Shown here: positions 4,981 through 58,078 of the stretch, in pieces
Numbering within the stretch: position 1 is the stretch's first letter
Layout of the letters: every line of letters starts with the position of its first letter
From: Candidatus Bacteroides merdipullorum
GTDB taxonomy: Bacteria; Bacteroidota; Bacteroidia; Bacteroidales; Bacteroidaceae
DNA: 64,000 nucleotides
Assembly: GCA_019116045.1 (NCBI GenBank)
Contig: DXCK01000036.1
Span: 20,435-84,434 of the forward strand
Direction: 5' to 3'
The notes under the pieces: model-generated
Told to the model about the DNA's origin: nothing
Database searches by the model: none
What the model saw: the letters and a program-made list of their open reading frames with translations, nothing else
Program-made: the position numbers and the translations under genes

Positions 4981-6201
4981 ATGACACCTACCTACGCACC
5001 CTTCGCCCACCCGCTCTACGTCATGCCCAAGCCCGCCGGCCCGATGTGCAACCTGGCCTGCGAGTACTGCTATTACCTGGAGAAAAACCAACTCTACTCC
5101 GAATCGCCCCAACGCGTGATGAGCGACGAACTGCTGGAAAAGTTTATCAAAGAGTACATCCAGGCCCAAACCCTGCCGTCGGTCCTGTTCACCTGGCACG
5201 GGGGCGAAGCGCTGATGCGCCCCCTCTCCTTCTACAAGAGAGCCGTCGAACTGCAGCGGCGTTACGCCGGCGGACGCACCATCGACAACTGCATCCAGAC
5301 CAACGGAACGCTGCTGACCGACGAGTGGTGCCAGTTCTTCCGCGAAAACAACTGGCTGGTAGGCATCTCGATAGACGGGCCGCAGGAGTTTCACGACGAA
5401 TACCGCCGCAACCGCCAGGGACGCCCCTCGTTCGTCAAAGTGATGCACGGCATCGGACTGCTGAAGAAGCACGGCGTGGAGTGGAACGCGATGGCCGTCG
5501 TCAACGACTTCAACGCCAACTACCCGCGCGAGTTCTACCACTTCTTCCGACAGATAGGCTGCCACTACCTGCAATTCGCCCCCATCGTCGAGCGCATCCT
5601 GCCCCATGCCGACGGCCGGCAACTGGCCTCTGCCGACGACGGGAGCGACGCGCGCCTGGCCCCGTTCTCCGTCTCGCCCCAGCAGTGGGGCACGTTCCTC
5701 TGCACCCTGTTCGACGAGTGGGTCAAGAAAGACGTCGGCACGATATTCGTCCAGCTCTTCGACTCGACCCTGGCCAACTGGGTGGGCGAGCAGCCCGGCG
5801 TCTGCACCCTGGCACCCACGTGCGGGCACGCCGGAGTGATGGAGTTCAACGGCGACGTCTACGCCTGCGACCACTTCGTCTTCCCCGAATACCGCCTGGG
5901 AAACATCTACACACACAGTCTCGTGGAAATGATGTACGGCGAACGGCAACTGAAGTTCGGGCAAGCCAAGCACGACAGCCTGCCCCGCCAGTGCCGCCAG
6001 TGCCCCTGGCTCTTCGCCTGCAACGGCGAATGTCCCAAGAACCGCTTCTGCCACACGGCCGACGGCGAACCGGGACTGAACTACTTGTGCGAGGGATACC
6101 GCATGTTCTTCGCCCACGTCGCCCCCTACATGGACTTCATGAAGCGCGAGCTGCTGGCCGGACGCGCCCCGGCTAATGTGATGAAGGCGGATATCCGGTG
6201 A
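4981..6201 (+). CDS. Anaerobic sulfatase-maturating enzyme family radical SAM/SPASM protein
   Basis: KPAGPMCNLACEYCYYLEK radical SAM CxxxCxxC motif; C-terminal Cys-rich SPASM (CDHFVFPEYRLGNI, CRQCPWLFACNGECPKNRF). ORF track extends to 4702 but passes through the tRNA; start at 4981 preferred. Confidence 0.88.
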   Translation: MTPTYAPFAHPLYVMPKPAGPMCNLACEYCYYLEKNQLYSESPQRVMSDELLEKFIKEYIQAQTLPSVLFTWHGGEALMRPLSFYKRAVELQRRYAGGRTIDNCIQTNGTLLTDEWCQFFRENNWLVGISIDGPQEFHDEYRRNRQGRPSFVKVMHGIGLLKKHGVEWNAMAVVNDFNANYPREFYHFFRQIGCHYLQFAPIVERILPHADGRQLASADDGSDARLAPFSVSPQQWGTFLCTLFDEWVKKDVGTIFVQLFDSTLANWVGEQPGVCTLAPTCGHAGVMEFNGDVYACDHFVFPEYRLGNIYTHSLVEMMYGERQLKFGQAKHDSLPRQCRQCPWLFACNGECPKNRFCHTADGEPGLNYLCEGYRMFFAHVAPYMDFMKRELLAGRAPANVMKADIR

Positions 6202-6316
6202 CAAGTTGCGAGCTACGAGCTACAAGCTACGAGCTACGAGTAGAAGAAAAGGAACATGCACAAGACCGGCATTCGCTTTCCCTGCACTCGTAGCTCGTAG
6301 CTTGTAGCTCGTAACT
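6201..6316. repeat. Inverted array of 7-nt units (CGAGCTA/CAAGCTA), mirror-symmetric
   Basis: Left arm 6201-6243 and right arm 6287-6316 share a complementary 26-nt core ACGAGCTACAAGCTACGAGCTACGAG. Confidence 0.9.
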
Positions 6317-7619
6317 AAACCAAATAGAACACCGCCAGCAGGCACACGTTCACCCCAATCACCACGCCAAACCCCGCCAACAACGGACGGCGCAACGCAC
6401 TGCCCCGCCCGGCGAAAAACAGCGCATAACACAAGTTCACAGCGATGTTGCTCACGATGGCTTGCAGGCTGCACGCCGCAATCAGCTTCACAGAGATGCC
6501 GCCCGTGCCCTGCACCAAGTTCAGGATGAACGGGGTGATGTCGCTCACGCCCGAGACGAAAGACAACGCCGTCAGCCCACCCCGCCCGGCATACACCAGC
6601 GTGTAGTGCGTCAACAGCGTAAACACCACGAACAGCAGGGCGAAGATGAGCGCCACCTTAAACTCCAGCGGGTTGCCCGTGTCGTCCTCGGCGGGCTCCG
6701 CCCCCGGCGTGGCCATCCGCCGGCGGTGCAGCCACCACGCCACGCCCGCCGCCACCAGCGCCATCGCCAGCAGGTAGGGATAGATGACCTCCAGCGCCTC
6801 CAAGCTGAAGATACCTATCAGGATAAGGAACCTCAGAAACATCATGCTGACCGCTAACAGCATGGCAGCGGCATACTCCGGAGCCTCGGCAGCCACCGCC
6901 GTGCGGCTTTTGCGCGCCAGCACGGATATGGTGGCGGTGCTGCTGTACAGCCCGCCCACGATGCCCGACACCAGGATGCCCGACTCGCGGAAGACGTAGC
7001 GGCGCAGCAGGTAAGACAGGTAAGAGATGCCCGACACGACCACCGTGGCCAGCCACACGTTGTAGGGCGTCAGGTTGATGCCCGCCACCAGCGTCTTGTC
7101 TGGGAGCATGGGCAGGATAATCCCACTGATGGCAAGAAACTTGGCCAGCGTAATCATCTCGTCGTTCTTCATGCGTTGCGCCAGCTCGGTAAAGGTGTGC
7201 TTCAGCTCGGTCAGCAGCAGCACGACCACCACCACGAGGACGTAGAACCACGAGGGCTGGGTGCAGACGATGGGCGCCAGGCAGTAGGTGATGAGGGCGA
7301 TGATGATGGTGGTCACTCCGAACACGTGGTAGCGCGTCTGCTTCACGTAGTAGTTCAGCGCCAGCAGCAGTCCCAGCACCGCGCCGCCGCCCAGAAAGAG
7401 GCGGTAGTCCGTCGGGTCGAGGATGTAGAGCAAGTAGCCCAGGATGCCGATGAACGTAAAGGTACGGTCGGTGCCAAACAGTGTGGTCTCGCCTTCGCGC
7501 TTCAGGCTGATGCGCCGTTGCGAAAGGCCGATGAGCAGGGAAAAGAGTGTCACCAGCACGAAAGTGACGAACTCCTGTGGCAAGTATGCGTAGATTCTTT
7601 CCATTTCTCGAGTAGACAA
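6315..7619 (-). CDS. MgtC/SapB-DUF4010 family integral membrane protein
   Basis: Many TM segments; N-terminal MgtC-like (LIGLSQRRISLKREGETTLFGTDRTFTFIGILGYLLY). Confidence 0.8.
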   Translation of the reverse strand: MSTREMERIYAYLPQEFVTFVLVTLFSLLIGLSQRRISLKREGETTLFGTDRTFTFIGILGYLLYILDPTDYRLFLGGGAVLGLLLALNYYVKQTRYHVFGVTTIIIALITYCLAPIVCTQPSWFYVLVVVVVLLLTELKHTFTELAQRMKNDEMITLAKFLAISGIILPMLPDKTLVAGINLTPYNVWLATVVVSGISYLSYLLRRYVFRESGILVSGIVGGLYSSTATISVLARKSRTAVAAEAPEYAAAMLLAVSMMFLRFLILIGIFSLEALEVIYPYLLAMALVAAGVAWWLHRRRMATPGAEPAEDDTGNPLEFKVALIFALLFVVFTLLTHYTLVYAGRGGLTALSFVSGVSDITPFILNLVQGTGGISVKLIAACSLQAIVSNIAVNLCYALFFAGRGSALRRPLLAGFGVVIGVNVCLLAVFYLV

Positions 7620-7622
7620 AAG

Positions 7623-7913
7623 AGTTAGTTAACGAGGGGACGAGTGGACGAGTGGACAAGGGAGAGTGGACAAGTTAACAAGTTGACGAGTTGACGAGGC
7701 GTTGGAGACGAGAGGACGAGGCGTTGGAAACGAGTTGACAAGGAGAAAGAGACGAGTTGACGAGGCTTTGAAAGCGAATTGACACGGTGGCGGACAAACG
7801 AAGCGGCGAATACGCCCTTGTTGCCTGACGCCTTGTCAACTTGTCAACTCTCCCTTGTCCACTCGTCCCCTCTCCCTTGTCCACTCGTCCACTTGTCACC
7901 TTGTCAACTCCCT
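7623..7913. repeat. Inverted array of 8-nt-like units (GACAAGTT/GACGAGTG)
   Basis: Left arm 7623-7750 repeats gacgagtg/gacaagtt words; right arm 7815-7913 is their reverse complement (cttgtcaacttgtcaactctcccttgtccactcgtcc). Confidence 0.88.
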
Positions 7914-8396
7914 GCCCGGTGCGCCATCTCCCCACGTGCGGTAAGGATGCTGCATCAGTTGGGCGTTGTAGTAACGCCGGTCGCCGGTCACCTCGCGGCC
8001 CAGGAAGGGGGGGCGTTCGAACGGTTCGGCGGGGTCGGACAGCTCGACTTCGGCCACCACCAGGCCTTCGTTCTCGCCGTGAAACTCGTCGACCTCGAAC
8101 GTGTGTCCGCCCCACGGCACCAGGTGGCGCGTCTTGTCGATGACGCCGCCCAGGCAGAGGCGCATCAGGTCGGAGGCGTCGGCGGGGTCAATCTCCTTCT
8201 CCCACTCGTAGCGGCTCAGGCCGCCGTCTGTCGAGGGGCCTTTGATGGTGAGGTAGCCCCGCCCGTCGCGCAGGCGGACGCGGACGGTTCGCCCGCCCGA
8301 GGCGCAGATGTAGCCTTGGGCGATGCGGCTGGACGAGGCCACGAGCGACCGCCAGTCGCCGTCGACCAGGAACTTGCGTTCAATCTCCTGCGGCAT
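7896..8396 (-). CDS. CYTH domain protein
   Basis: N-terminal EIERKFLV (ExExK signature) and CYTH-like strand pattern. Confidence 0.85.
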   Translation of the reverse strand: MPQEIERKFLVDGDWRSLVASSSRIAQGYICASGGRTVRVRLRDGRGYLTIKGPSTDGGLSRYEWEKEIDPADASDLMRLCLGGVIDKTRHLVPWGGHTFEVDEFHGENEGLVVAEVELSDPAEPFERPPFLGREVTGDRRYYNAQLMQHPYRTWGDGAPGRELTR

Positions 8397-8401
8397 GGTG
8401 T

Positions 8402-8539
8402 TCAGGCCCAGACGGTGTAGGCCACGAATGAGAGGATGACGAGCACGACGGCCACGATGGTGATGGCGCGCATCACTTTTTTTCCTTGTTCTTCTTCACG
8501 TTGCGTGTGTGTCACGCGGTTTCTATTGCTTCTTCCCAT
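8402..8539 (-). CDS. 45-aa single-TM microprotein upstream of CYTH gene
   Basis: MGRSNRNRVTHTQREEEQGKKVMRAITIVAVVLVILSFVAYTVWA, ends 5 nt before CYTH start, same strand. Confidence 0.6.
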   Translation of the reverse strand: MGRSNRNRVTHTQREEEQGKKVMRAITIVAVVLVILSFVAYTVWA

Positions 8540-8631
8540 GGTGTTTAGTTTTAGTTTATTGTTCAACGGAAAGCAAAGTAAGGGGAATTTCCGGAAGATT
8601 CCAAGCAAAAGGGGAAGAAATTTGCGAGAAG

Positions 8632-9531
8632 TCAGTTCAGGCTGTACTCCGAGGGTGCCTGCCCGGTGTATTTCTGGAACACGAGGTTGAAGCGGGCGAT
8701 GCTGTCGAAGCCCAGTTGCCGGGCCACTTGCGCGGGCGTGTTCGCCCCGGTCTGCAAGAGTCGTTTGGCCATCTCCAGGCGGCGCAGTTGGAAGTATTCG
8801 GCCAGGTTCTGCCCCGTCTCGAAGTGCAGCAGGTCGCCGAAGTAAGCCTCGCTCAGCCCCAGCAGGCGGGCACAGTCGGCCGCGGCCGGCATCCGCCCTC
8901 CCGCCATGCGCCCGGCGCCGATGTAGTCGTCGGCCCAGCGCTCCAGTTGTGCCAGCAGACGCTTGTTCTTGTCCTCGCGGGTGATGAACTGGCGTTCGTA
9001 ATAGCGCGTGCAATAGTCCAGCAGCAGCTCGATGAGCCGGGAGAGCAGCGTGCGGCTGTGGCCGTCGATGGCATGGTGCAGCTCCTCGTCGATGTCGTCG
9101 AAGTAGTGGCGCACGCGCTCCGTCTCGCGCTGCGACAGGTGCAGGGCCTCTTCCTGGCGGTAGTGGAAAAAGGTGTATTGGTCGATGTGCCGGCACAGCG
9201 CGGTGCTGAGCAGCAGCATCGGGTCGAAGGCCAGCAGCAGTCCGCGCGGGGGCAGGGTGTTTTCCTTGCTCATGCGGAACGCCTCGCCGGGGGTGAGGAA
9301 CACCATTGTGGCGTAGGCAAAGTCGTAGTAACGGCGCCCGCAGCAGTCGCCGCATCCGGCGCTGTCTTCTATCAGCAAGATGGCGTAGAAGTCAAACTTC
9401 ACCGCCTGCTGTCCCAGCCCGGGATTCTCCAGGTTGATGACGGCGGCCTGCGGGTGCCACGTCTTGCTGCCCAGGCAGCGGTTGCACTCGCACACAGTCT
9501 TTATGTCCAGCACATTTTCCTTTTTCTTCAT
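8632..9531 (-). CDS. AraC family transcriptional regulator
   Basis: C-terminal AraC HTH (ADCARLLGLSEAYFGDLLHFETGQNLAEYFQLRRLEMAKRLL...VARQLGFDSIARFNLVFQKYTGQAPSEY); start MKKKENVLD preferred. Confidence 0.88.
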   Translation of the reverse strand: MKKKENVLDIKTVCECNRCLGSKTWHPQAAVINLENPGLGQQAVKFDFYAILLIEDSAGCGDCCGRRYYDFAYATMVFLTPGEAFRMSKENTLPPRGLLLAFDPMLLLSTALCRHIDQYTFFHYRQEEALHLSQRETERVRHYFDDIDEELHHAIDGHSRTLLSRLIELLLDYCTRYYERQFITREDKNKRLLAQLERWADDYIGAGRMAGGRMPAAADCARLLGLSEAYFGDLLHFETGQNLAEYFQLRRLEMAKRLLQTGANTPAQVARQLGFDSIARFNLVFQKYTGQAPSEYSLN

Positions 9532-9574
9532 ATCGGCTCGATTTCCCGCAGGGGGACTGATGGTTTTCTGGTGG

Positions 9575-9582
9575 CAAAGATA
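9575..9582 (-). promoter_or_regulatory. -7 box (TATCTTTG) for araC-type gene
   Basis: CAAAGATA on + strand 44 nt upstream of start. Confidence 0.5.
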
Positions 9583-9654
9583 ACCATTCCCCAGCATCCG
9601 CGTTCTACCCACATTACAGATTCTTTAACCTTTCTCACCGTTTTTTCGGTTATG

Positions 9655-9740
9655 CCGCCAGGCGCCGCGCCCGTGTGCGGCGGAAGGACGGCCGGTGTGC
9701 GGAGCGGGCGCGCCCGTTGCGGACAAGAGCCGCGCAGTAA
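9655..9740. repeat. Degenerate ~22-nt quasi-palindromic repeat family, copy B
   Basis: tgtgcggcggaaggacggccgg / tgtgcggagcgggcgcgcccg / ttgcggacaagagccgcgcag. Confidence 0.5.
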
Positions 9741-9792
9741 TTCGGGTAAAAACTTCTGTAATCCGGATAAAAGGCGGAACGGACAAATGGCT

Positions 9793-9800
9793 TACCTTTG
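9793..9800 (+). promoter_or_regulatory. -7 box TACCTTTG upstream of TonB receptor
   Basis: TACCTTTG 45 nt upstream of start codon. Confidence 0.5.
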
Positions 9801-9844
9801 CAGCGACTGAAACGATTATCCATTTTATACACTTTACAGAAGAT

Positions 9845-11728
9845 ATGAGACAACGATTCACTCTTACTCTCCTGTCCCTCGCACTGGCGACGGCGGTCGC
9901 CGGGGCGGCGGACAAACAGGAAACTGACTCTGTGCGCCACGATTACCGGCTGAACGAAGTGGTCGTCACCGGCACACGCAACGCGACTGACATCCGCCAC
10001 TTGCCCATGACCATCAGCGTCGTGGGACGCACACAACTGGCCGACCGATACCAACCCTCGCTCCTGCCCGCGCTGACGGAGCAGGTGCCCGGCCTGTTCG
10101 TCACCAGCCGCGGCGTGCTGGGCTACGGCGTGTCCACCGGAGCGGCGGGCGGGCTGAGCATCCGCGGACTGTCGGGCAGCGCGCAGATGCTGGTGCTCAT
10201 CGACGGGCACCCGCAGTACATGGGACTCTTTGGTCACCCCATCTCCGACTCGTACCAGACAATGCTGGCCGAGCGCGTGGAGGTGCTCCGCGGCCCGGCC
10301 TCGGTGCTCTACGGTTCGAACGCCATGGGCGGCGTCATCAACATCGTCACACGCCAGATGCACGAAGACGGGGTGCAGACCGACATCAACCTGGGCGCCG
10401 GCTCCTACGGCACGGTGCAGGCCGAGGCGGTGAACCGCGTGCGCAGCGGACGATTCAGCAGCACGGCCTCCTTTTCGTACAACCGCACGGACGGACATCG
10501 CGCCGACATGCCTTTTGAACAGTTCAGCGGCTACGCCAAGCTGTCGTACGAAGTGACGAAGAACTGGCGGCTGTGGGGCGACGTGAACGTGACGCACTTC
10601 AACGCATCGAACCCCGGCGAGACCTTTGCGCCCCTCATCGACAACGACTCGCGCATCACCCGCGGCATGGCCTCGGCCATGCTCGAAAACCACTACGACC
10701 GCACATCCGGCGCCCTGAGCTTCTTCTACAACTGGGGGCGGCACAAGATTAACGACGGCTACGAGCCGGGCGAAGAGCCGCAAGAATCGCTGTTCCACAG
10801 CAAAGACCTGATGATGGGCGTCTCCTGGTACCAGAGCGCCGAACTGTACCGGGGCAACCGCCTGACCGTGGGCGTGGACTACCAGCACTTCGGCGGCGAG
10901 TCGTGGAACGAGGCCGTGCTGGACGGCGAGCGCATCCCCGGCGTAGAGAAGAAGCAAGACGAAGTGGCGGCCTACGCCGATTTCCGGCAAGATTTCGGAC
11001 GCTGGCTGTCGCTGAACGCCGGCCTGCGCGTCGACCACCACTCGCACGTGGGCACCGAGCTCGTGCCCCAGGGCGGCCTGGCCTTCCACCTGCCCCGCCA
11101 GGCCGAGCTGAAGGCAATGGTCAGCAAAGGCTTCCGCAACCCCACCATCCGCGAGATGTACATGTTTCCCCCGCAAAATCCCGACCTGCGCCCCGAACGG
11201 CTGATGAACTACGAGCTCAGCTTCACGCAGACCCGCCTGGACGGCGCACTGACCTACGGCGCGAACCTCTTCTACATCGACGGCGACAACCTCATCATGA
11301 CCGTCCGGCAGGACGGCCGCCCGCACAACGTGAACAGCGGACGCATCCGCAACTGGGGCCTGGAAGCCAACGCCGGCTGGCGCGTCAACCCGCACTGGAG
11401 CGTCTACGCCAATTATAGCTGGGTGCACATGGATAACCCCGTCATCTCCGCCCCCGAGCACAAGCTCTACCTGGGGGCCGACTTCCGGCGGGGACGCTGG
11501 ACCGCCTCGACGGGCCTCCAGTACGTGGGCAGACTATACACCTCCGTGGGCGAGGCACCCACGACCGAGGACTTCGTCTTGTGGAACGTCCGCGCCTCCT
11601 ACCGCCTCTGCCCCTACGCCCGCCTGTTCGTGCGCGGCGAAAACCTGCTGGCACAGCGCTACGAAGTGATGCTGGGCTATCCGATGCCGAAAGCCACCTT
11701 CCTGGGAGGCATCAGCCTGAACCTTTAA
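9845..11728 (+). CDS. TonB-dependent receptor
   Basis: Plug domain (NEVVVTGTRNATDIRHLPMTISVVG, LRGPASVLYGSNAMGGVINIVTR) and C-terminal beta-barrel. Confidence 0.9.
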   Translation: MRQRFTLTLLSLALATAVAGAADKQETDSVRHDYRLNEVVVTGTRNATDIRHLPMTISVVGRTQLADRYQPSLLPALTEQVPGLFVTSRGVLGYGVSTGAAGGLSIRGLSGSAQMLVLIDGHPQYMGLFGHPISDSYQTMLAERVEVLRGPASVLYGSNAMGGVINIVTRQMHEDGVQTDINLGAGSYGTVQAEAVNRVRSGRFSSTASFSYNRTDGHRADMPFEQFSGYAKLSYEVTKNWRLWGDVNVTHFNASNPGETFAPLIDNDSRITRGMASAMLENHYDRTSGALSFFYNWGRHKINDGYEPGEEPQESLFHSKDLMMGVSWYQSAELYRGNRLTVGVDYQHFGGESWNEAVLDGERIPGVEKKQDEVAAYADFRQDFGRWLSLNAGLRVDHHSHVGTELVPQGGLAFHLPRQAELKAMVSKGFRNPTIREMYMFPPQNPDLRPERLMNYELSFTQTRLDGALTYGANLFYIDGDNLIMTVRQDGRPHNVNSGRIRNWGLEANAGWRVNPHWSVYANYSWVHMDNPVISAPEHKLYLGADFRRGRWTASTGLQYVGRLYTSVGEAPTTEDFVLWNVRASYRLCPYARLFVRGENLLAQRYEVMLGYPMPKATFLGGISLNL

Positions 11729-11750
11729 ACATAAATAAACCCTAAAAAGC

Positions 11751-11805
11751 AAGGCCGGAGACCACAAAGACGCAGCAAAAGCGTTACTTTTGTCTCCGGC
11801 CTTTC
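11751..11805 (+). terminator. Hairpin terminator-like element
   Basis: AAGGCCGGAGAC ... GTCTCCGGCCTT inverted repeat, weak T tract. Confidence 0.55.
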
Positions 11806-11849
11806 ACGTTAAGGCCGCACTTACGATTCACTCACCCAAAACACCGGCC

Positions 11850-13838: not shown

Positions 13839-13856
13839 CGCCCGACCCGCACAACG

Positions 13857-13908
13857 AAGGGGCAGATGCTTCCGGCAACCGGGAAAAGCATCTGCCCCTT
13901 CTTCTTGT
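13857..13908 (+). terminator. Intrinsic terminator after GH20 gene
   Basis: AAGGGGCAGATGCTT ... AAGCATCTGCCCCTT hairpin followed by CTTCTTG. Confidence 0.7.
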
Positions 13909-13946
13909 CCACATGTGCCGCCCGCAAGGTGCGGAGGCGGCAAGCG

Positions 13947-15065: not shown

Positions 15066-15190
15066 TCCTTTCTCTCAGATTTTTATGATTCTTTATATAT
15101 ATCCTCTTTCTGCACGGAGATTCCAGCTCCGGCCCATGTCCGCAGAAGGATTCTCCCGACGGGGCCGGGCAAAATCCCTGCACGACAGTG

Positions 15191-15198
15191 CAAAGGTA
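15191..15198 (-). promoter_or_regulatory. -7 box TACCTTTG, candidate prfB promoter
   Basis: CAAAGGTA on + strand upstream of prfB. Confidence 0.45.
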
Positions 15199-15254
15199 TG
15201 AAAAAAACGCATATATTTGCAGGACAACAAGAAACTAAATACAACTGAACCGCC

Positions 15255-15508: not shown

Positions 15509-15549
15509 GCCAAGGAGTACGAATCACACATTATATAATCTTATCGCTT

Positions 15550-18477: not shown

Positions 18478-18501
18478 ACGGGCAACCCCCGCACATGCCA
18501 C

Positions 18502-18850: not shown

Positions 18851-18887
18851 TGGAAGGGAAACGGACAGGAAACGGACAGGCAGGCGG

Positions 18888-26839: not shown

Positions 26840-26854
26840 AAGAAAGGTTTGCTC

Positions 26855-26978
26855 TGTCATTTCGAGTGGAGCGCAGCGGAATCGAGAAATCTCACTATGC
26901 GCAGAAAAGACACGAGGGAAATAAGCGAAAGACGTTAGGGAGATGTCTCGACTACGCTGCGCTTCGCTCGACATGACA
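26855..26978. repeat. 124-bp inverted-repeat element (TGTCATTTCGAG...CTCGACATGACA)
   Basis: Long imperfect terminal inverted repeats, 15 nt after the TonB receptor stop codon. Confidence 0.85.
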
Positions 26979-27126
26979 GGAAGCGATATTTATCTGCACT
27001 TGAAGCCAAGGACATCCCCTGAGTTACCATTCATCGAGCAGTGCTTCTACAGGTCTTTATAAAACGTCCACGGGTAAAGATACGGAAAAAAAGAAAGATA
27101 TTGTTGGAATACGAGAAACTTTGTCT

Positions 27127-33887: not shown

Positions 33888-33913
33888 GAACCCATTCAAA
33901 TCCTCGTCAGCAC

Positions 33914-34015
33914 TGTCATGTTGAGCGGAGCGCAGCGCAGTCGAAACATCTCCCTACGCGAAAGGAATGTATTAGGAAGATTCTTCGAATGTGCTGCGCT
34001 CCGCTCAACATGACA
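33914..34015. repeat. 102-bp inverted-repeat element, same family as 26855-26978
   Basis: TGTCATGTTGAGCGGAGCGCAGC ... GCTGCGCTCCGCTCAACATGACA perfect 23-bp terminal inverted repeats flanking about 56 bp. Confidence 0.9.
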
Positions 34016-34054
34016 GATAGCACTCTTTAGACAATCCGTAAGCCAAACGCCCAG

Positions 34055-43530: not shown

Positions 43531-43695
43531 GGGGACAAGTTGACAAGTTAACGAGGCTACAAGGTGTCCGGTCTGGGGACAAGTTGACAAGTTAACAAGG
43601 CTACCAGGTGTCCGGTCTGGGGACGGGTTGACAAGTTAACGAGGCTACCAGACGCCCGCGCCTTGTGGCCTGAAGCCTTGTCCCCTGGTCAACTA
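43531..43695. repeat. Three 44-bp tandem repeats plus inverted partial arm between SusD and SusE genes
   Basis: ggggacaagttgacaagttaacgaggctaccaggtgtccggtct starting at 43531, 43575 and 43619; inverse arm gccttgtcccctggtcaact. Confidence 0.9.
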
Positions 43696-43698
43696 AAA

Positions 43699-45195
43699 TT
43701 AATATCCCGGGTTCTGCGTCATCAGCGGGTTGGCGTCCATCTCGGTCTGCGGGATGGGGAACAGCAGACGGTCGCGTGTGACGTTGGTCTTGCCGATGGA
43801 GTGCAGGAAGTCGATGGCATACTGCCCGTCCCCACCGATGCGGATGAGGTCGAACCAGCGGTGTCCCTCGAAAGCCAGCTCCATGCGGCGCTCGTGTATG
43901 ATGCGCTCGCGCATCGCGTCTTGCGACAGTCCCGACACGTCGCCCAGCCCGGCACGGCGGCGCACGATGTTCAGCGGCGTCTCGGCCTGCTCCGTCTGCC
44001 CCATCTCGTTCAGGGCTTCGGCCTTCATCAGCAGCACGTCGGCATAGCGGTAGACCACGAAGTTGGCCGGATTGGTGTTGTACTCCGGCGAGACGGCTTT
44101 CGTCACCAGGAATTTGCGGACGTTGTAGCCCGTGTTGCTGTACGAAGCCTTATACTGCTTGCCGTCGAAGTCGGGGCAACCTTCGTAGAAGACGGTCAGG
44201 TCTTTTCGCAGGTCGCCTTCCTCCCATTCGTCCATAAACTCCTGCGTAGGCAGATTCCAGCCGTAGCTGCCGGCCACGAAGTCTGAGTTGCGCGGACCCA
44301 TAAAGGTGGAAAGCCACGACGATTGCGGGTTGTTTCCCCAGAAGTCATACTCCGTGCTGCCGGAATATTGTACCTCGAACAGCGACTCGGAGCTGTTGTT
44401 GAGGGTAGCGTCGAAGTTGTCGGCAAAGTTGCAGGCAGTCAGGTCGTAGCCCAGGGCGGCGATGTCGTCGCACAGGTCGACCACGTCTTGGTAATACTCG
44501 CTGTGCTGCGGAGCCAGTGTCAGCTTGATGTCGGCCATCATCGCCATAGCAGCTTCACGGCAAGCACGGCCCACGTTCTCGGCATCATACTCGGCCTTCG
44601 CGGGCAGCAGGTCGATGGCGTTCTGGCAGTCGGACAAGATTTGCTGGTAGGTCTCCTCCTTCGTGTTGCGGGCGATGGCCGTCGACTCTCCGGGATTGTA
44701 GGGCGTCAGGCGCAAGGGCACACCGCCGTACAGGCGCACCAAGATGAAGTAGTAGTGCGCACGAAGGAAATACGCCTCGCCCATGCAGCGGTTGCGTACG
44801 GCGTCGCTGACGTCGGCCGCACCCGGCAGGCTGTTGAGCACGATGTTACACTGTCCGATGCCCACCCAAGGCGAACGCCACATGTACAGGGCCATGGCGT
44901 TGTCGCTCTGCGTGATGAAGTCGGCCGCCTGTATGGTCTCCAGGCCGTCGGTGCCCCCGCCGGCGCCCACCTCACTGTTGCCGGCCACGATGTCCAGCGT
45001 CCAGAGGCGCTGGTTGTACATGTTCGAAGACTGGAGCGTGCGGTAACAGGCAGTGGTCAGCGCCACGGCCACGTCGTCGGTCACGTTCGTTTCAGGGTCT
45101 ACCGAATTGAGGGGCGACTTGTCCAGAAAGTCGCTGCACGAGGCCAGCATGCACGTGGCAGCCAGTCCCAGTATGAAATGATGTAGTTTGTTCAT
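43699..45195 (-). CDS. SusD/RagB family lipoprotein
   Basis: Lipoprotein signal (ATCMLASCSDFLDKSPLNSVDPET), YADVLLMKAEALNEMGQTEQAETPLNIVRRRAGL, ERRMELAFEGHRWFDLIRIG. Confidence 0.95.
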   Translation of the reverse strand: MNKLHHFILGLAATCMLASCSDFLDKSPLNSVDPETNVTDDVAVALTTACYRTLQSSNMYNQRLWTLDIVAGNSEVGAGGGTDGLETIQAADFITQSDNAMALYMWRSPWVGIGQCNIVLNSLPGAADVSDAVRNRCMGEAYFLRAHYYFILVRLYGGVPLRLTPYNPGESTAIARNTKEETYQQILSDCQNAIDLLPAKAEYDAENVGRACREAAMAMMADIKLTLAPQHSEYYQDVVDLCDDIAALGYDLTACNFADNFDATLNNSSESLFEVQYSGSTEYDFWGNNPQSSWLSTFMGPRNSDFVAGSYGWNLPTQEFMDEWEEGDLRKDLTVFYEGCPDFDGKQYKASYSNTGYNVRKFLVTKAVSPEYNTNPANFVVYRYADVLLMKAEALNEMGQTEQAETPLNIVRRRAGLGDVSGLSQDAMRERIIHERRMELAFEGHRWFDLIRIGGDGQYAIDFLHSIGKTNVTRDRLLFPIPQTEMDANPLMTQNPGY

Positions 45196-45221
45196 ATCCG
45201 TATGATAAAAAGGTGAAAGGG

Positions 45222-48224: not shown

Positions 48225-48289
48225 GACATTAAACTTTATGATTAAACAAACGGTTCTTGGCTTCCTCTCCCGATTGAGAAAGCGTACAG

Positions 48290-48297
48290 CAAAAATA
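48290..48297 (-). promoter_or_regulatory. -7 box TATTTTTG upstream of SusC gene
   Basis: CAAAAATA on + strand. Confidence 0.4.
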
Positions 48298-48428
48298 TTA
48301 GGAAAAACAAGAAGCCATAAGAACGCACAGTGAAAAAGTAGTGCGCAAAAGACATTAATCTATTGCTTTACAGCGAAATAAGAGTCAGAAGAAAGTCCGA
48401 TAAAGTAGTAAGAAAAGACAGCCTGAAA

Positions 48429-50084: not shown

Positions 50085-50111
50085 GGCATCACGCAACTGT
50101 GTTTCTGCGGC

Positions 50112-50119
50112 CAAAGATA
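50112..50119 (-). promoter_or_regulatory. -7 box TATCTTTG of PUL regulator
   Basis: CAAAGATA on + strand 28 nt upstream of start. Confidence 0.5.
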
Positions 50120-50138
50120 CGTATTTTTACCGGACGGA

Positions 50139-50169
50139 AGAAAAAAAGGAGCGCAAATCGCGCTCCTTT
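50139..50169 (-). terminator. Intrinsic terminator after GH3 gene
   Basis: On minus strand AAAGGAGCGC-GATTT-GCGCTCCTTTTTTTC. Confidence 0.8.
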
Positions 50170-50199
50170 CCTCAGTCTGAGTCATTTCGCCCCACCGGT

Positions 50200-52533
50200 T
50201 TATCGGTTGGCAGCCTCCCAACGCTTGGTGGTGGTGCAGGCGATGTTCAGTGTCTGGTCGCCGGCCTGGATGCGGAAGTCCCCTTGCTCGAGCACCCAAT
50301 GCCCGTCGTAACCCACAAAGGCCAGGTCGGAGGCTTTCACCTTCAGGGTGACAGTCTTGGTCTCGCCGGGTTGCAGCTCTACTTTTTCGAAGGCGCGCAG
50401 ACGGCGGTTGTCTGGCGTGAGCGAGGCTACCAAGTCGCTGCTGAACAGCAGCACGCTTTCCTTGCCGGCCACGCGGCCCGTGTTGGTGACGTCGACGGTG
50501 AAGGTCAGCACGTCGTCGGCTGTGAAGCGGGAGCGGTCCACGCGCAGGTTACTATATTTATAAGAGGTGTACGACAGTCCGTAACCAAAGGCCCACTGCA
50601 TGGCCACCTGGGCATCGTAGTTGTAGGCTCCCTCCATGGGCTTGCCGATGTGTTCGCAAGGCTTGTAGTCGTAGGTAATGAGCGAGTTGATTTCTTTGGG
50701 ATAGGTGTAGGGCATCTTGCCGCTGAAGTTGGCCTCGCCGCTCAAGAGGCGAGCCAGCGCATCGCCGCCGTAGTTGCCCGGCAGCATGGTGTGGACAACA
50801 GCTTTGGCCAGCGGTTCAATCTCGGCCAGGATGCGCGGACGTCCTTCGTTCAGCACCAGGATGATGGGTTTGCCCGTCTTGGCCAGCGCTTTCACGAGGT
50901 TTATCTGGTTGTCCGACAGGAAGAGGTCGGTCAGGTTGCCCGGCGTTTCGCAGTACGAGTTCTCGCCGATGCAGGCCACGATTACGTCCGCGCCTTGGGC
51001 GGCGTTCACAGCCCGGTCGATTTCGGGGGCATTTTCCTCCCACCACAGTCCGCCTTCCTTGTAGGTGACGCCCGGTTCGTAGGTGACGTTGGCGGCGCCG
51101 TACTTGGCGGTCAGTGCTTCGAGGATGGTGTTATACTGGCCGGCACACTGGTCTGCCTTGTCTCCTTGCCAGGAGTAGGACCAACCGCCGTTGAGCGTGC
51201 GCATCGAGTTAGCATTGGGCCCGGTGACCAAGAGCTTCTTGCCGGGTGCGAGGGGCAGCAGGTTGTTGTCGTTCTTCAGCAAGACGATGGACTCTTCGGC
51301 GGCTTGCAGGGCTGCGTCGGCAAACTCTTTCGACCCGAATTTGGGATAGTCTTTGAAGTCAGTCCAGGGTTGTTCGAACAGGCCGAGGCGATACTTCATC
51401 CGAAGAATACGGCGCACGGCGTCGTCGATGCGGCTCATGGGCACTTCGCCTTCTTCGACCAGCTCCTTCAGCAGCGGGCAGAAATCCCAGTTATAGGGGT
51501 CCATGCTCATGTCGATGCCGGCGTTGATGGCCAGCTTGATGGCTTCCTTCTTCGAGGCGGCGATGTGGTCGCGGCTATAAAGGTTGACGATGTCCGCCCA
51601 GTCGGTGACAATCATGCCGTCCCAGTTCAGGCCTTCCTTCAGCCAGCCGGTCAGCAGCTCGTAGTTGGCGTGGAAGGGCAGCCCGTTGTTCATGGCCGAG
51701 TTGACCATCAGAGACAAGGCTCCGGCGCGTGCCATCTCGACGTAGGGGGCGAAGTGCTTCTCGCGCATGTCTTGTTCGGTGATGGACGAGGGCGTGCGGT
51801 CTTTGCCAGAGACGGGGACGCCGTAGCCCATGAAGTGCTTCATGCAAGCGGCGACGTTGTACGGGCCGACGTGGTTGGGGTCGTCGCCCTGGAAACCGAG
51901 GACGGCTTCGCGGCCCATCTCGGCGTTCAGGTAGGCGTCTTCACCGTAGTTTTCCCACATGCGGGGCCAGCGCGGGTCGCGCCCCAGGTCGACCACCGGC
52001 GCGTAGGTCCAGGGGATGCTGCCGGCGCGGGTCTCGTAGGCCGAGATGGCGGCACCGGTGCGGGTCAGCTCGCGGTTGAACGTGGCGCCCATGTTGACTC
52101 CCTGCGGGAAGAGCGTTCCGCCCAGCGTGTAGGTAGTGCCGTGTATCTGGTCAACGCCGTAGATGTTTGGTATGCCCAGCTCTTCCATCGACACCTCTTG
52201 GATGCGCTTGATGATTTCGTGCCACTTCTGCGGGGATACGGCCAGGCCGTCGGGCACGTTCAGGATGGAGCCGACCTTGTAGATGCGGATGACGGTGTCC
52301 AGTTTGGCTTCGTCCATCTGCCAGCCCAAGGCGGGGTCGGCCTTCCAGTCTTTCAGCACGTCGATGGTCAGTTCGCACATTTGTCCGATTTTCTCGTCGA
52401 GCGTCATTTTCTTCAACAACGTTTCGACTTTCTGTTCGATTTTCTCATCGCGCGGAATGGCGGGAGTCACGCTCTGCGCGGCAGCGGTCAGGACAGTGCC
52501 TGCCGCCAGGCAAGTCAATAAAAGCTTTTTCAT
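50200..52533 (-). CDS. GH3 family glycosidase (beta-glucosidase type)
   Basis: [39 protein letters not shown] nucleophile motif, fibronectin III-like C-terminus. Confidence 0.93.
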
Positions 52534-52622
52534 CTCGTTTCGTATAAAAGTGTAAGTAGTGTGTCTTTCTCAGCGGCAAGCCCCGGAGTGCACAGGGCCT
52601 GAAGCCCCGGCAGTAGGGAGAC

Positions 52623-54950
52623 TTACCTGCGCAGCAATTTCAATGCCTGCCGGGGCTTCAGGATGTTGGCCGCCTTTTCGGAAGAGGCAGGCACATCGGC
52701 CTGGAGCGTGGCCTTGACGTCGCATGACGAGGTGGCAACCAGCAGGGAATACATCCCCCCGTCTACGACCCACGACGACGATGCCTCGTCGAACGAAGCC
52801 AGGTCGGCCGTGCGGACGGTCAGGGCTATGTTTTGAGTCTCGCCCGGCTGCAACAGGCCGGTTTTGGCGAAGGCTTTCAGTTCTTTGTCGGGCTTGTTGC
52901 GGACAGCGGCATCGGGGGCAGAAACGTAGAGTTGCACCACTTCCTTGCCGGGCACGGTGCCGGTGTTGGTCACGTCGACCCGCACGGTATAAGCGCCCGC
53001 CGAAGCTTCGACGACGGGATTGGCAAACTCGAAGGTGGTGTAGCTCAACCCATAACCGAAGGGATAGGAAACGGGGACGCCAAAGCTGTCGAAATAGCGG
53101 TAGCCCACGTAGATGTCTTCTTCGTAGTCGGTGTAATCGACGTTGCGGACGGCGGCTTTCTTCTCTTGTTTGTTCACCAGGTCTACTTGGGCGGTCTGGT
53201 TGACGGGGAAGTTGGCCGACGAAGGCACGTCTTCGAAGCGCACGGGGAAGGTCATGGGCAGGCGGCCGCTGGGCGACACTTTGCCGCTCAGCACGTCGGC
53301 CACGCTGTTGCCCCCTTCTTGCCCGGGCTGCCAGACGCAGAGTACGGCGTCGGGCAACTGCTTCCACGAGGCGGTCTCGATGACGCCGCCGATGTTGAGC
53401 ACCACCACTACCCGCTTGCCTGCGGCGTGGAAGGCGGAGGTGACGTCTTCCAGCAGTTGTTTTTCGTCTTTACTCAGGTAGAAGTCGGACAGCCAGCGGT
53501 CGAGGAACTCGCCCGAAGTCCGCCCCAGGGTCACCAGCGCCAGGTCGTTCGCTGAAGCCAGGCTGCGGATGCGGTCGGCTGGCAGCGGCATTTCGACGGG
53601 ACGCTCTTCGGGCATGAGGGGGGCGTGTTCCAGCTTGGAGATGCGTTCTTTCTCGACAGCCAGGTGTGCCTCGTAAGCTCGCTTCAGACTCTCGTCGGGG
53701 GTATAGCCGGCTTCCTTCAGGCCGTCCAGCAGCGAGACGGTGTAGGCGCGGTTCACGTTGCCCGAACCTGTGCCGCCAGGCACGAAGTCGTAAGACGTGC
53801 AGCCAAAGAGGGCGATGCGGCTGACGGTGGAGTCGAGCGGCAGCGCATGGTCGCGGTTCTCCAGCAGCACCATGCCCTCGGCGGCCGACTGGCGGGTGAC
53901 GGCGGCATGTGCCTCCAGGTCGGGCTTGTTGCTGAATTTATAGCCCTTGAAACGGGGCGAACGGAGAATCATCTGCAGGATGCGGCGCACATTCGTGTCC
54001 AGCACCTGCTCGTCCAGCTTTCCTTCCTTCACGGCTGCCAACAGGGTCTCGTATTGCTTGTCCAGGCCGGGCTGAATCATGTCGTTTCCGGCTTTCATCT
54101 GTGCCACCGCATCCTTGCCACCGAACCAGTCCGTAACGACCATGCCTTCGAAGCCCCATTCGTCGCGCAACAGTGTCGTGAGCAGCTCGGGGTTCTCGGA
54201 CGTGTACAACCCGTTCAGGTAATTATAGGAAGACATCACTGTCCAGGGGCGCCCCTCTTTGACGGCAATCTCGAATCCTCGCAGGTAAATCTCACGCAGG
54301 GCACGCTGCGAGACGTGCGCGTCCACTGTGCCACGGTTGGTCTCCTGATTGTTCACGGCGAAGTGCTTGATGCTGGTGCCCACGCCGTTCTCCTGCACGC
54401 CGCGCACGTAGGCGGCTGCCATCCGGCCGCTCAGCACGGGGTCTTCGGAGAAATACTCGAAGTTGCGCCCACACAGCGGGTTGCGCTGTATGTTCATGCC
54501 CGGCGCCAGCAGGACGTCTGCCCCGTATTCCAGCGCCTCGTTGCCGATGGCCTGCCCCACGTTCTCCACCAAGTCCTGGTTCCAGGTCGATGCCAGCAGG
54601 GTGGCGATGGGGAAGTGCGTGCAGTAATAGGTGGCGGTGTCGTCGGGGCGTGTCGAGTCAATGCGCAGGCCGGCAGGGCCGTCGGCAAAGACCACGGCGG
54701 GGATACCCAAGCGTTTGACGGGATAGGAAGTGCCGGCGGCACCGGGCAGCGACTTGTCCGTGCGGCCGATGACGGGTTGCTCGCCCGAGGCTTCGGCCAT
54801 GCCGGTGCCGATGACCAGATGTACTTTTTCTTCCAGACTCATGGCATCCACCACGTCTTCCACCGGAGCCTGGCCCAGTTGCGGTGTGCCGGGGCCGCAG
54901 GCGCATAAGGCTGTAGCCGCGAAGGCTGCCCAACAGATTTGTTTTTTCAT
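52623..54950 (-). CDS. GH3 family glycosidase, lipoprotein
   Basis: MSLEEKVHLVIGTGMA, GFEGMVVTDWFGG, SYNYLNGLYTSENPELLTTLLRDEWGF, FnIII-like C-terminus. Confidence 0.93.
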   Translation of the reverse strand: MKKQICWAAFAATALCACGPGTPQLGQAPVEDVVDAMSLEEKVHLVIGTGMAEASGEQPVIGRTDKSLPGAAGTSYPVKRLGIPAVVFADGPAGLRIDSTRPDDTATYYCTHFPIATLLASTWNQDLVENVGQAIGNEALEYGADVLLAPGMNIQRNPLCGRNFEYFSEDPVLSGRMAAAYVRGVQENGVGTSIKHFAVNNQETNRGTVDAHVSQRALREIYLRGFEIAVKEGRPWTVMSSYNYLNGLYTSENPELLTTLLRDEWGFEGMVVTDWFGGKDAVAQMKAGNDMIQPGLDKQYETLLAAVKEGKLDEQVLDTNVRRILQMILRSPRFKGYKFSNKPDLEAHAAVTRQSAAEGMVLLENRDHALPLDSTVSRIALFGCTSYDFVPGGTGSGNVNRAYTVSLLDGLKEAGYTPDESLKRAYEAHLAVEKERISKLEHAPLMPEERPVEMPLPADRIRSLASANDLALVTLGRTSGEFLDRWLSDFYLSKDEKQLLEDVTSAFHAAGKRVVVVLNIGGVIETASWKQLPDAVLCVWQPGQEGGNSVADVLSGKVSPSGRLPMTFPVRFEDVPSSANFPVNQTAQVDLVNKQEKKAAVRNVDYTDYEEDIYVGYRYFDSFGVPVSYPFGYGLSYTTFEFANPVVEASAGAYTVRVDVTNTGTVPGKEVVQLYVSAPDAAVRNKPDKELKAFAKTGLLQPGETQNIALTVRTADLASFDEASSSWVVDGGMYSLLVATSSCDVKATLQADVPASSEKAANILKPRQALKLLRR

Positions 54951-55222
54951 TTTTCAGGTATTTATTACGTTACAAAATAAAGATTGAAACAAGGTTTTCC
55001 GGTCTGCCTTATCAGGAATGACTTTCTTCTCATCTTTCACGAAATTTCTTCACACGTAAGAAAATTTCCCATTGCTTCGTTTCCGGCCGTCCTTCCGTTT
55101 TAACCGTCAGGACGCGAAGTCTTCCGCATAAGACATTCTCCTGCAAAGTAAAGGATTTTTTGTCAGAAACAAACATTATCGCGGATATTTTTTCAAACAA
55201 TCTTTTTTCTCCTGTCCCGCGC

Positions 55223-55350
55223 CTCTCCGGCAGAAGAGTCCGGAAACGCCTCCGGACAGACAGCCCCGCCCGTTGCCCGCAACAGCGGCGGCCAGCATCC
55301 GCACGAGGCGCGGCCCGTGTCCGCAACGGCGGAACGCCTCTCCCCAAGGC
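55223..55350. repeat. Degenerate ~22-nt repeat family, copy G
   Basis: ccggacagacagccccgcccg / ttgcccgcaacagcggcggccag / catccgcacgaggcgcggcccg / tgtccgcaacggcggaacgcctc. Confidence 0.6.
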
Positions 55351-55369
55351 GCCGGCCGGCGGCCGGAAA

Positions 55370-55478
55370 GGAAGGAAAAAAAGAAACCGTTCCCACCCTC
55401 ACGGGCAAGAACGGTACACAAGTCAATAATACATGAAAAAACGCTATTTAGAGAGAGTTCTTTGTTGGATTCTCAAAT
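55370..55478 (-). ncRNA. Candidate ~100-nt sRNA
   Basis: Minus-strand promoter TTTG(55516-55513)-20 nt-TACCTTTG(55492-55485); 5' hairpin GGATT-TGAG-AATCC; terminator hairpin ACCGTTC...GAACGGT with T tract. Confidence 0.6.
55376..55415 (-). terminator. Intrinsic terminator of candidate sRNA
   Basis: Minus strand ACCGTTCTTGCCCGTGAGGGTGGGAACGGTTTCTTTTTTTCC. Confidence 0.8.
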
Positions 55479-55484
55479 CCGAGA

Positions 55485-55516
55485 CAAAGGTATGTAATAG
55501 TTTTCTTTTCTCCAAA
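55485..55516 (-). promoter_or_regulatory. Full Bacteroidales-type promoter of candidate sRNA
   Basis: TTTG -33 and TACCTTTG -7 with 20 nt between them. Confidence 0.7.
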
Positions 55517-55706
55517 TAACTACCGACGTTTTTCTGAATTTTATCGACGAATAAGACAGAATAGGTCGCGAAAAGCACCAAACAGTGCATCGGAAGCCGG
55601 GCAAACGCCCGCCAGCCCGCAGCCGCCGCAGGATGCGCCGCACGCGAAACACCCGGCAAACACACATTAGCCCCGGCAAAAAGAAACGGCTTACGCAGAT
55701 TTTTCG

Positions 55707-55714
55707 TACCTTTG
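55707..55714 (+). promoter_or_regulatory. -7 box TACCTTTG of rbfA
   Basis: TACCTTTG 26 nt upstream of start. Confidence 0.55.
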
Positions 55715-55739
55715 CGGAACGAACGTAAAACAACGACTT

Positions 55740-56075
55740 ATGGAAACGACCAGACAGAACAAGATAGCGCGCCTGCTGCAAAAAGAGTTGAGCGACATCT
55801 TCCAGCGGCAGACACAGGGCACACACGGCGTATTGGTATCCGTCAGCGCCGTCCGCATCAGCCCCGACCTGAGCGTGGCACGCGGCTACCTCAGCGTCTT
55901 CCCCTCGGAACGAGCCGAGGAAATCGTGAAGAACATTAACGCCAACGTCAAGTCCGTGCGCTACGAGCTGGGCACGCGTGTCCGCCACCAGTTGCGCATC
56001 ATCCCCGAGCTGAAGTTCTTCATCGACGACTCACTGGACTACGTAGAGCACATCGACGAGCTGCTGAAGAAGTGA
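55740..56075 (+). CDS. rbfA: Ribosome-binding factor A
   Basis: RQNKIARLLQKELSDIFQRQ ... VSVSAVRISPDLSVARGYLSVFP ... LKFFIDDSLDYVEHIDELLKK. Confidence 0.93.
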   Translation: METTRQNKIARLLQKELSDIFQRQTQGTHGVLVSVSAVRISPDLSVARGYLSVFPSERAEEIVKNINANVKSVRYELGTRVRHQLRIIPELKFFIDDSLDYVEHIDELLKK

Positions 56076-57295
56076 AACTCTCGCTCTACATCGCCCGCCG
56101 GTATCTCTTCGCACCGAAAAAACACCGCGCCGTCAACGTCATATCCGCCCTATCTGCCTGTGGAGTGACGTTGGCCACGGTGGCTTTGGTGTGCACCTTG
56201 TCCGTATTCAACGGCTTTCGCGAGATGGTCAGCGGATTCTTCACCGCCTTCGACCCCGAGCTGAAAATCACCACGCGGCAGGGCAAGACGTTCGACCCGG
56301 CCGACTCGTGCCTGGCAGCCGTGCGCCGCCTGCCGGAAATAGCCGTGTGGAGCGAGACACTGGAAGAAAGCGCCCTGGTGCGCTACAAAGGACGGCAGAC
56401 CGTGGCCACCATCAAAGGCGTGGACCAGCAGTTCAGCCGGCTGGCCGCCATCGACAGCCTGCTGTTCGGCACAGGCACCTTCGTGTTGCAAGACTCCGTA
56501 GCCTTCTACGCCGTGCCGGGCGTCGACCTCCTCTCGCAACTGGGCTGCGGACTGGCTTTCGTCGACCCGCTGCAAGTCTATGCGCCCCGCCCCGGCATAC
56601 GCATCAACGTCGCCAACCCCTCGGCAGGACTGAACAAAGGATACTTGCACGCCAGCGGCCTCACCTTTATCGTCAACCAAGACAAGTATGACTCACACTA
56701 CCTGCTGGCCTCACTGGACTTCGCCCGCCACCTGTTCGGACAGCCGCGCGACGTCTCGGCCATCGAACTGCGCCTGGCGCCGGGCACCGACACCGACCGG
56801 GTCAAGCAACGCATCGCCCGAATGGCCGGGCCGCGCTTCGTCGTGCAAGACCGCTACGAGCAGCAGGCCGACGTGTTCCGCATCATGGAGAGCGAAAAGC
56901 TCATCTCCTACCTCTTCCTGACCTTCATCCTCATACTGGCCTGCTTCAACCTGATAGGGTCACTGTCCATGCTCATGCTGGAGAAGCGCGACGACGTGCA
57001 GACGCTGCGCAACCTGGGAGCCGACAGGCGGCTGGTGCACCGCATCTTCCTGTGCGAAGGGGGACTCATCCTGCTGTGCGGCGGCGTGGCAGGCATCGGC
57101 ATCGGGCTGCTGCTGTGCCACCTGCAGCAGACATACGGCCTCATCACCTTGGGACAGACGGGGCAATTCGTCACCGACGCCTTCCCCGTCAGCGTGCAGG
57201 GGGGCGACGTGGTCGCGGTGTTCTTTACAGTGTTGTGCGTAGGAGGACTGGCCGTGTGGTATGCCGTGCGCTACCTGGGCAGGCGGTTGCTGTGA
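56072..57295 (+). CDS. FtsX/LolE-like ABC transporter permease
   Basis: IARRYLFAPKKHRAVNVISALSACGVTLATVALVCTLSVFNGF; four TM segments; overlaps rbfA stop by 4 nt. Confidence 0.9.
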   Translation: MKLSLYIARRYLFAPKKHRAVNVISALSACGVTLATVALVCTLSVFNGFREMVSGFFTAFDPELKITTRQGKTFDPADSCLAAVRRLPEIAVWSETLEESALVRYKGRQTVATIKGVDQQFSRLAAIDSLLFGTGTFVLQDSVAFYAVPGVDLLSQLGCGLAFVDPLQVYAPRPGIRINVANPSAGLNKGYLHASGLTFIVNQDKYDSHYLLASLDFARHLFGQPRDVSAIELRLAPGTDTDRVKQRIARMAGPRFVVQDRYEQQADVFRIMESEKLISYLFLTFILILACFNLIGSLSMLMLEKRDDVQTLRNLGADRRLVHRIFLCEGGLILLCGGVAGIGIGLLLCHLQQTYGLITLGQTGQFVTDAFPVSVQGGDVVAVFFTVLCVGGLAVWYAVRYLGRRLL

Positions 57296-57927
57296 GCCTC
57301 TTTCTTCCGAATCAGCGTCAGTCCGTCGCGCAGGGGCAGTATGACCTTTTCCACACGCTCGTCCTGCGCCACCCGGTCGTTGAACCGCTGGATGCCGAGC
57401 GTCTGTAGGTCTGAAGGGCGGGGATGTTCCTCCAGCACATGGCCGTCCCACAGCGTGTTGTCGGCAATGATGTAGCCGCCGGGAGCCAGGTGCTGCATCA
57501 CCATCTCGTAATATTCCACATACTTGCGTTTGTCCGCGTCGATATAAGCCAGGTCGAAGGTCAACCCCAGGCGGGGCACTTCCGTCAGGGCATCGCCGAT
57601 GCGGAAGTCAATGCGCGAGCCCCAGGGCGAGTTCTCCAGCCAGGGGCGCGTGAAGTCTTCTTGCTCGTCGTTCACTTCGAAGGTGTAGAGCTTGCCGTCC
57701 GCCGGAAGGCCTTCGGCCAGGCACAGGGCGGAATAGCCGCTGTAAGTGCCAAGCTCGAGCACCAGGCGGGGACGAATCATCTGCACGAGCATCTTCAGCA
57801 GCCGGCCTTGCAGGTGGCCGGAGGCCATGCGCGGATAGAGCAGGCGCAGGTGGGTGTCGCGGTAGAGGGCGTGCAGGTAGTCGCTCTCCGCGTCTATGTG
57901 CGAAAGGATGTATTCGTCGAGGGACAC
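57271..57927 (-). CDS. SAM-dependent O-methyltransferase (class I, family 3)
   Basis: VLELGTYSGYSALCLAEGLPADGKLYTFEVNDEQ, FDLAYIDADKRKYVEYYEMVMQHLAPGGYIIADNTLWDG; GTG start. Confidence 0.9.
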   Translation of the reverse strand: MSLDEYILSHIDAESDYLHALYRDTHLRLLYPRMASGHLQGRLLKMLVQMIRPRLVLELGTYSGYSALCLAEGLPADGKLYTFEVNDEQEDFTRPWLENSPWGSRIDFRIGDALTEVPRLGLTFDLAYIDADKRKYVEYYEMVMQHLAPGGYIIADNTLWDGHVLEEHPRPSDLQTLGIQRFNDRVAQDERVEKVILPLRDGLTLIRKKEAHSNRLPR

Positions 57928-57935
57928 GGGAAGAA

Positions 57936-58078
57936 GAAATTAAGAATTAAAAATTGAGAATTGAGAATCAGGAAATTGAGAATTGAGAATTAGGAATTAA
58001 AAGCAAGGTACTGAGAAAGTGTTGGTTTTCTCTTCGCTCTATTTTTTAATTCTTAATTCTCAATTCTCAATTTCTCAG
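57936..58078. repeat. Inverted array of 7-nt units (AATTGAG)
   Basis: Left arm 57936-58001 and right arm 58044-58078; 31-nt complementary core with one mismatch. Confidence 0.92.

Follow-up and report, generated by a model that had tools for sequence, protein, structure and literature searches.

The window analysed here, a 64-kb stretch of DNA (contig C9:20435-84434), comes from a fragmented 2.55-Mb assembly of 138 contigs that is 77% complete; the nearest named relatives of this source genome are Bacteroides/Mediterranea species. Four repeat elements, E1 to E4, lie at the ends of genes within the window (Table 1), and three of them agree with the original prediction of hairpins built from opposed arms of 7-8-nt repeats. 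E1 has perfect 28-nt arms (6214-6241 and 6286-6313) and a fold of -61.7 kcal/mol (z -8.7), the 56-nt arms of E2 are 86% complementary (z -13.7), and the 31-nt arms of E4 (57972-58002 and 58044-58074) match at 97% (z -7.7). RNA-fold z-scores for these three lie at about -7 to -14, and as RNA the elements must form very stable stem-loops. E3, a 44-nt tandem repeat with a short opposed arm, fits the description less well and is weak as a hairpin (z -3.7/-1.6). Searching the window against Rfam at the gathering score gave no match save for a tRNA at 4763-4835.

Table 1. Repeat elements of the window and the genes that flank them
Feature	Position	Strand	Description
E1	6199..6317	.	Opposed AGCTACR (7-nt) arrays; fill a convergent gene gap, both stops included
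E2	7627..7910	.	Opposed GACRAGTT/GACRAGTG (8-nt) arrays; hold the last codons and stop of the CYTH gene
E3	43531..43693	.	2.8 tandem copies of a 44-nt unit with GACAAGTT; short opposed arm 43677-43693; SusD-like / SusE/F-like gap
E4	57935..58077	.	Opposed AATTGAG/AATTAAG (7-nt) arrays; pyruvate kinase stop to O-methyltransferase start
Radical SAM/SPASM (anSME-like) gene	4981..6201	+	PF04055, PF13186; stop supplied at E1 edge
DUF4010/MgtC-like gene	6315..7604	-	PF13194; E1 on its 3' side, E2 on its 5' side
CYTH-domain gene	7896..8396	-	PF01928; terminates inside E2
SusD-like gene	43699..45195	-	PF07980; upstream of E3
O-methyltransferase gene	57271..57927	-	PF01596; downstream of E4
Pyruvate kinase gene	58075..59532	-	PF00224; upstream of E4, stop at arm edge

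The further claim that an arm lies at or near a stop codon held for all four elements. The edges of E1 coincide with the stops of two convergent genes (TGA 6199-6201 on the + strand and TAG 6315-6317 on the - strand), the CYTH gene stop (TGA 7896-7898, -) is inside the 3' arm of E2, the SusD-like gene stop (43699-43701, -) is a few nucleotides from E3, and the pyruvate kinase stop (TGA 58075-58077, -) abuts or overlaps an arm of E4. The protein ends differ among genomes. The radical SAM protein ends in MKADIR* in the window and in the sister genome L019, versus MEAIR(R/K)GE... in relatives without E1. The CYTH protein of the window ends in ...GDGAPGRELTR, with GRELTR and the stop encoded within the E2 arm, and orthologous CYTH proteins terminate soon after HPYRTW. 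At both E1 and E2 the stop codon comes from the element, and the protein's last residues are changed.

The window also holds two inverted repeats with 44-nt arms (CTGTCATnTCGAGnGGAGCGCAGCG...), at 26854-26979 and 33913-34016, which are of a non-tandem palindromic type distinct from E1-E4. A palindrome resembling this type is found at the pyruvate kinase (pyk) junction of L102 and in the loop of an AATGAAG element (L257 16047-16293), where it forms a second, different palindromic repeat.

Elements of the same kind are dispersed through the source genome

Elements were detected as a tandem repeat of period 7 or 8 with an overlapping inverted repeat. In the window the detector found E1, E2 and E4 and missed E3, and it returned 0 elements from 10 dinucleotide shuffles. 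In 1,503,281 bp (1.50 Mb) of the source genome it found 38 elements, with 0 in three rounds of shuffles of this sample; because opposed arms were demanded, direct-only arrays of the genome are uncounted. Single-period runs on the source genome gave 29 elements at period 7, 9 at period 8, 7 at period 9 and 6 at period 11, with 0-2 at each of the remaining periods (2 at period 5, 1 at period 6, none at period 10), and periods 7 and 8 are dominant in the 1.50-Mb sample.

A chance origin is rejected, since the shuffles gave no elements. The fragmentation of the assembly might suggest an artefact, but named isolate genomes contain the same kind of element, as does G021, a single-contig genome, and we find an explanation by chance or faulty assembly hardly credible. 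The density of elements is about 25 per Mb in the source genome versus about 9.5 per Mb in other Bacteroides, a rough comparison, as the other Bacteroides were sampled mostly in the neighbourhood of one gene. These other Bacteroides have fewer elements, often with different units (TAAGTAT, GATTAGT, AAGTAGT).

Five main unit families were recognized in the source genome. A simple pattern count, in which mixed or odd copies are possibly misfiled, assigns 13 elements to AATGAAG, 11 to AGCTACR, 8 to GACRAGTT (phase AGTTGACR), 4 to AATTGAG and 2 to AATGGTT. Outer ends recur by family (AGCTAC...GTAGCT, AGTTGAC...GTCAACT, AATGAAG...CTTCATT), in the AGCTACR family the inner ends are recurrent too (...ACGAGT / ACTCGT...), and purines make up more than half of the 5' arm in 35 of the 38 elements. 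In every family except AGCTACR, the units put a stop into each of the three frames of the 5' arm. Inverted arms measure up to 97 nt and loops mostly 20-130 nt. Loop sequences are mostly unrelated between copies, the exception being a pair within one gene that shares its loop, which rules out that the elements are copies of one MITE.

When the pairing of an arm with its own partner was compared with its pairing to arms of other copies, the own partner was clearly better only in the small AATTGAG family and mostly in AGCTACR. No such advantage was seen in GACRAGTT or AATGAAG, and arm matching within copies is only partly supported. In a phylum scan of 198 genomes, the GACRAGTT pattern occurred in the source genome alone and the AATTGAG pattern in six genomes; three AATTGAG loci inspected outside the source genome had no opposed 7/8-nt arms. 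The largest element, a 669-bp compound GACRAGTT array with 97-nt inverted arms, lies near a contig end (L121 52-720).

Elements are concentrated directly after stop codons

Among 33 intergenic elements, 29 lie between co-directional genes, 3 between convergent genes and 1 between divergent genes. The median distance from a co-directional element to the upstream stop is 0 nt (n=29): 22/29 either overlap the coding end (13) or lie within 5 nt of the stop (9), against an expectation of 3.8% (uniform over spacer bases) to 18.6% (uniform over junctions). Placement relative to stops is clearly not random, in keeping with the original prediction. The downstream start lies a median of 14 nt away, and in 23/28 the element is closer to the stop than to the start (sign test p=0.0009); genes were called with a simple codon-usage caller, and because gene starts are predictions, distances measured to them carry more uncertainty than those measured to stops. 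The spacer left over at occupied junctions has a median of about 14 nt, versus 86 nt at empty junctions (Mann-Whitney p=6e-9). Only 4 of the 38 elements are inside genes, versus 85% of the DNA being coding. The elements are found preferentially in tight junctions between genes, immediately behind the stop; their units vary within and between species and the layout is constant.

Two AATGAAG elements lie at predicted N-termini, of an RsgA-like GTPase (L137 14424-14490) and a histidine kinase (L194 357-458). They would encode MKNEE...HSS-type leaders and are probably start-site mispredictions.

Strong placement directly after stops, together with the very stable folds, would be expected of selected RNA elements, that is, hairpins at mRNA 3' ends or within operons (an exonuclease barrier, processing site or attenuator) whose identity turns over while the function stays. 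That other species have unrelated or terminator-like hairpins at a shared junction is consistent with this explanation, and so is the shortage of elements in divergent gaps relative to their length (these gaps make up 46 of 174 kb but hold 1 of the 33 intergenic elements). Counted per junction, however, the divergent depletion is not significant (1/122 divergent junctions with an element, p=0.17). The 10 nt after the 3' arm contain a mean of 3.1 T with no consistent T-run, and intrinsic terminators are ruled out by this missing U-tract. Many relatives are hairpin-free at the same junction, having a 2-60-nt gap or overlapping genes, and some copies are in frame within coding sequence. We regard a selected RNA function as possible though somewhat doubtful.

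Copies within genes do not require a stop codon

An in-frame element of 63 codons lies in uvrA (L135 1659-1847). In most relatives this site is occupied by a linker of about 5 codons, and in G016 and G028 by insertions that contain GACRAG-type units and are shorter than that of the source genome. Further in-frame copies are found in an apgM-like gene (L123 13156-13258) and in a gene for an FAD/4Fe-4S oxidoreductase, where two AATGAAG elements (L166 3650-3748 and 4223-4320) are both in frame. The two oxidoreductase copies have similar loops, and each adds about 33 residues.

These in-frame copies show that a stop codon is unnecessary for an element to be present, and together with the filling of gaps up to starts they reject a stop-specific process as the sole rule. 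One of two explanations put forward in the original prediction, a process that creates and maintains stop-adjacent hairpins, is not supported in view of in-frame copies in three genes, filling up to the next start and units that in most families have stops in every frame. The nearness to stops probably follows from insertion at gene ends, where most units, carrying stops in all three frames, would end the gene on insertion.

A related idea is that the elements grew in place, with the stop codon there first and slippage and fold-back copying acting independently at each gene end. Element edges are indeed often the stop codon itself, and heptamer slippage is a published idea, cited in PMC4679880 and PMC4692102. 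Independent growth, however, would not be expected to produce a few unit families that recur at many loci of one genome, and in-frame copies lie far from stops; we consider this origin very unlikely.

Orthologous junctions differ between relatives

The pyk/O-methyltransferase junction was compared across 30 genomes. In the three nearest relatives (L092-L094) the two genes overlap (ATGA) and there is no element, while in other species the junction either lacks a hairpin or holds one built of AATTGAG, AATTGAA/AATTGAT, AATGGAC or AAGTTGA units. At the macB junction, relatives have no element, GATTAGT arrays or unrelated hairpins. The yfmF-like junction is occupied by an AATGAAG element in the source genome and by AGCTACR in G007, and other relatives have GTGATTA-type arrays, terminator-like hairpins or none. 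E1 is present in L019 and absent from L013, L040 and L043; E2 is absent from L019, and different hairpins are found in L013 and in B. cellulosilyticus (L036).

With many copies, presence or absence at orthologous sites and in-frame copies in conserved genes, the elements are dispersed insertions. The second explanation of the original prediction, a mobile repeat class with diverging units, agrees with the dispersed copies, the orthologous presence and absence, the single layout common to several unit families, and the different units at the same junction across species.

Comparison with known repeats

REP elements (GTAG- or CGTC-tagged) are dispersed hairpins that mainly occupy the gaps of unidirectional or convergent gene pairs, where they follow coding regions; they often provide the stop codon, and some are in frame within genes, uvrA included (PMC3733652). 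The Bacteroides elements match them in gene-end placement, stop supply, in-frame copies and even uvrA. REP elements, however, consist of a single short stem of 5-13 bp closed by a small loop and are tagged at one end with GTAG or CGTC, the GTAG types being paired with RAYT transposases (PMC3733652), whereas the Bacteroides arms are long and built of 7-8-nt arrays, enclose loops usually of 20-130 nt and belong to several unit families. Neither tag is present in the AATTGAG and AATGAAG families; the AGCTACR arms contain GTAG and the GACRAGTT arms CGTC, but recurring along the arm and not as a single end tag. The earlier view that no named family covers these repeats can therefore be kept for their sequence architecture only, as REP elements have been published with the same placement, stop supply and uvrA copies.

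A classical non-autonomous transposon, either a MITE or a REP mobilized by a transposase from the host or its relatives, would account for dispersed copies with recurrent end sequences in each unit family, for the two copies with a common loop in one gene and for the REP-like placement. Against this, loops are otherwise unrelated, and searches for Y1_Tnp (PF01797), the RAYT type included, gave no match in the 77%-complete source genome or in several near-complete carriers (G007, G016, G021). A clear target duplication was seen at none of uvrA, E1 and E2, where the closest empty sites are so diverged that one could have gone unnoticed. Overall, we think a classical transposon unlikely.

Heptamer repeat arrays are also known from cyanobacteria as STRR. 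TAACTGA heptamer arrays, present in some Bacteroidetes, are intergenic and either extend over the stop of the gene before them or lie ahead of a start (PMC4679880), and GGGAATC arrays consist of intergenic 7-nt units with some copies inverted (PMC4692102). Tandem 7-nt units in intergenic DNA are common to these arrays and the Bacteroides elements. The published arrays are, however, described as direct and essentially of one unit, whereas the Bacteroides class has opposed arms as a rule and several units in one layout.

Rickettsia palindromic elements (RPE) are in-frame palindromic repeats in unrelated conserved genes, with families of about 150 bp that encode a conserved peptide (PMC10969869). 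In-frame insertion into conserved genes is a shared property, though of a minority of Bacteroides copies; the latter differ in having tandem arrays as arms and in being mostly intergenic. The BrickBuilt MITE of Porphyromonas gingivalis likewise combines tandem and inverted repeats in a member of the Bacteroidales. It has 23-nt units and IS5-like terminal inverted repeats, is always 49-591 nt from coding sequences and shows some target duplications (PMC4596501), and so differs from the Bacteroides elements in units and placement. A search of the open literature, unit strings included, found no description of the Bacteroides hairpin class, most subscription papers being outside its reach.

Origin and retention of the elements

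We favour the reading, with a probability of about 0.5, that the four window elements belong to one interspersed REP-like hairpin class of Bacteroides that is kept where insertion is tolerated. Proximity to stop codons would then probably reflect where insertions survive, not a dedicated stop-codon mechanism. On this reading the spread of copies would not depend on a dedicated Y1 transposase, and would probably have come about when replication or repair copied single-stranded hairpin DNA. Slippage and fold-back copying would lengthen, shorten and partly match the opposed arrays, and could also drive unit turnover. Selection would remove copies in promoters, start regions and protein cores, leaving survivors at 3' ends and where a protein has a flexible linker; start regions would be less permissive because the promoter and ribosome binding need room. 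Insertion into the last codons would create a new stop at once, as most units have TGA or TAA in all three frames. Side effects on mRNA processing or stability would be likely.

Scarcity in long spacers and the filling of convergent gaps (0, 7 and 9 nt left) are beyond what simple tolerance predicts. The re-use of the same junctions by different hairpins could reflect selection for a hairpin, and a selected RNA role or targeted insertion is possible. It is also conceivable, if doubtful, that these are a distinct Bacteroides element class with an inherited repeat grammar (opposed 7-8-nt arrays with recurring end phases) in which the unit word turns over, spread by a candidate enzyme or repair route that favours translation-termination junctions.

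In proteobacteria, interspersed hairpin repeats have been described in detail; Bacteroides is a major gut genus. The elements remodel operon junctions, alter protein C-termini and enlarge a UvrA linker. Junctions re-used by different hairpins across species form a natural series for separating tolerated debris from functional intercistronic hairpins, and the same series bears on how short tandem repeats turn into dispersed inverted arrays. At the macB and yfmF-like junctions of other species (L283, L315, L322) we also observed a hairpin of longer units (CACCACAGATTACACAGATT...AATCTGTGTAATCTGTGGTG), which suggests that further repeat classes use the same sites.
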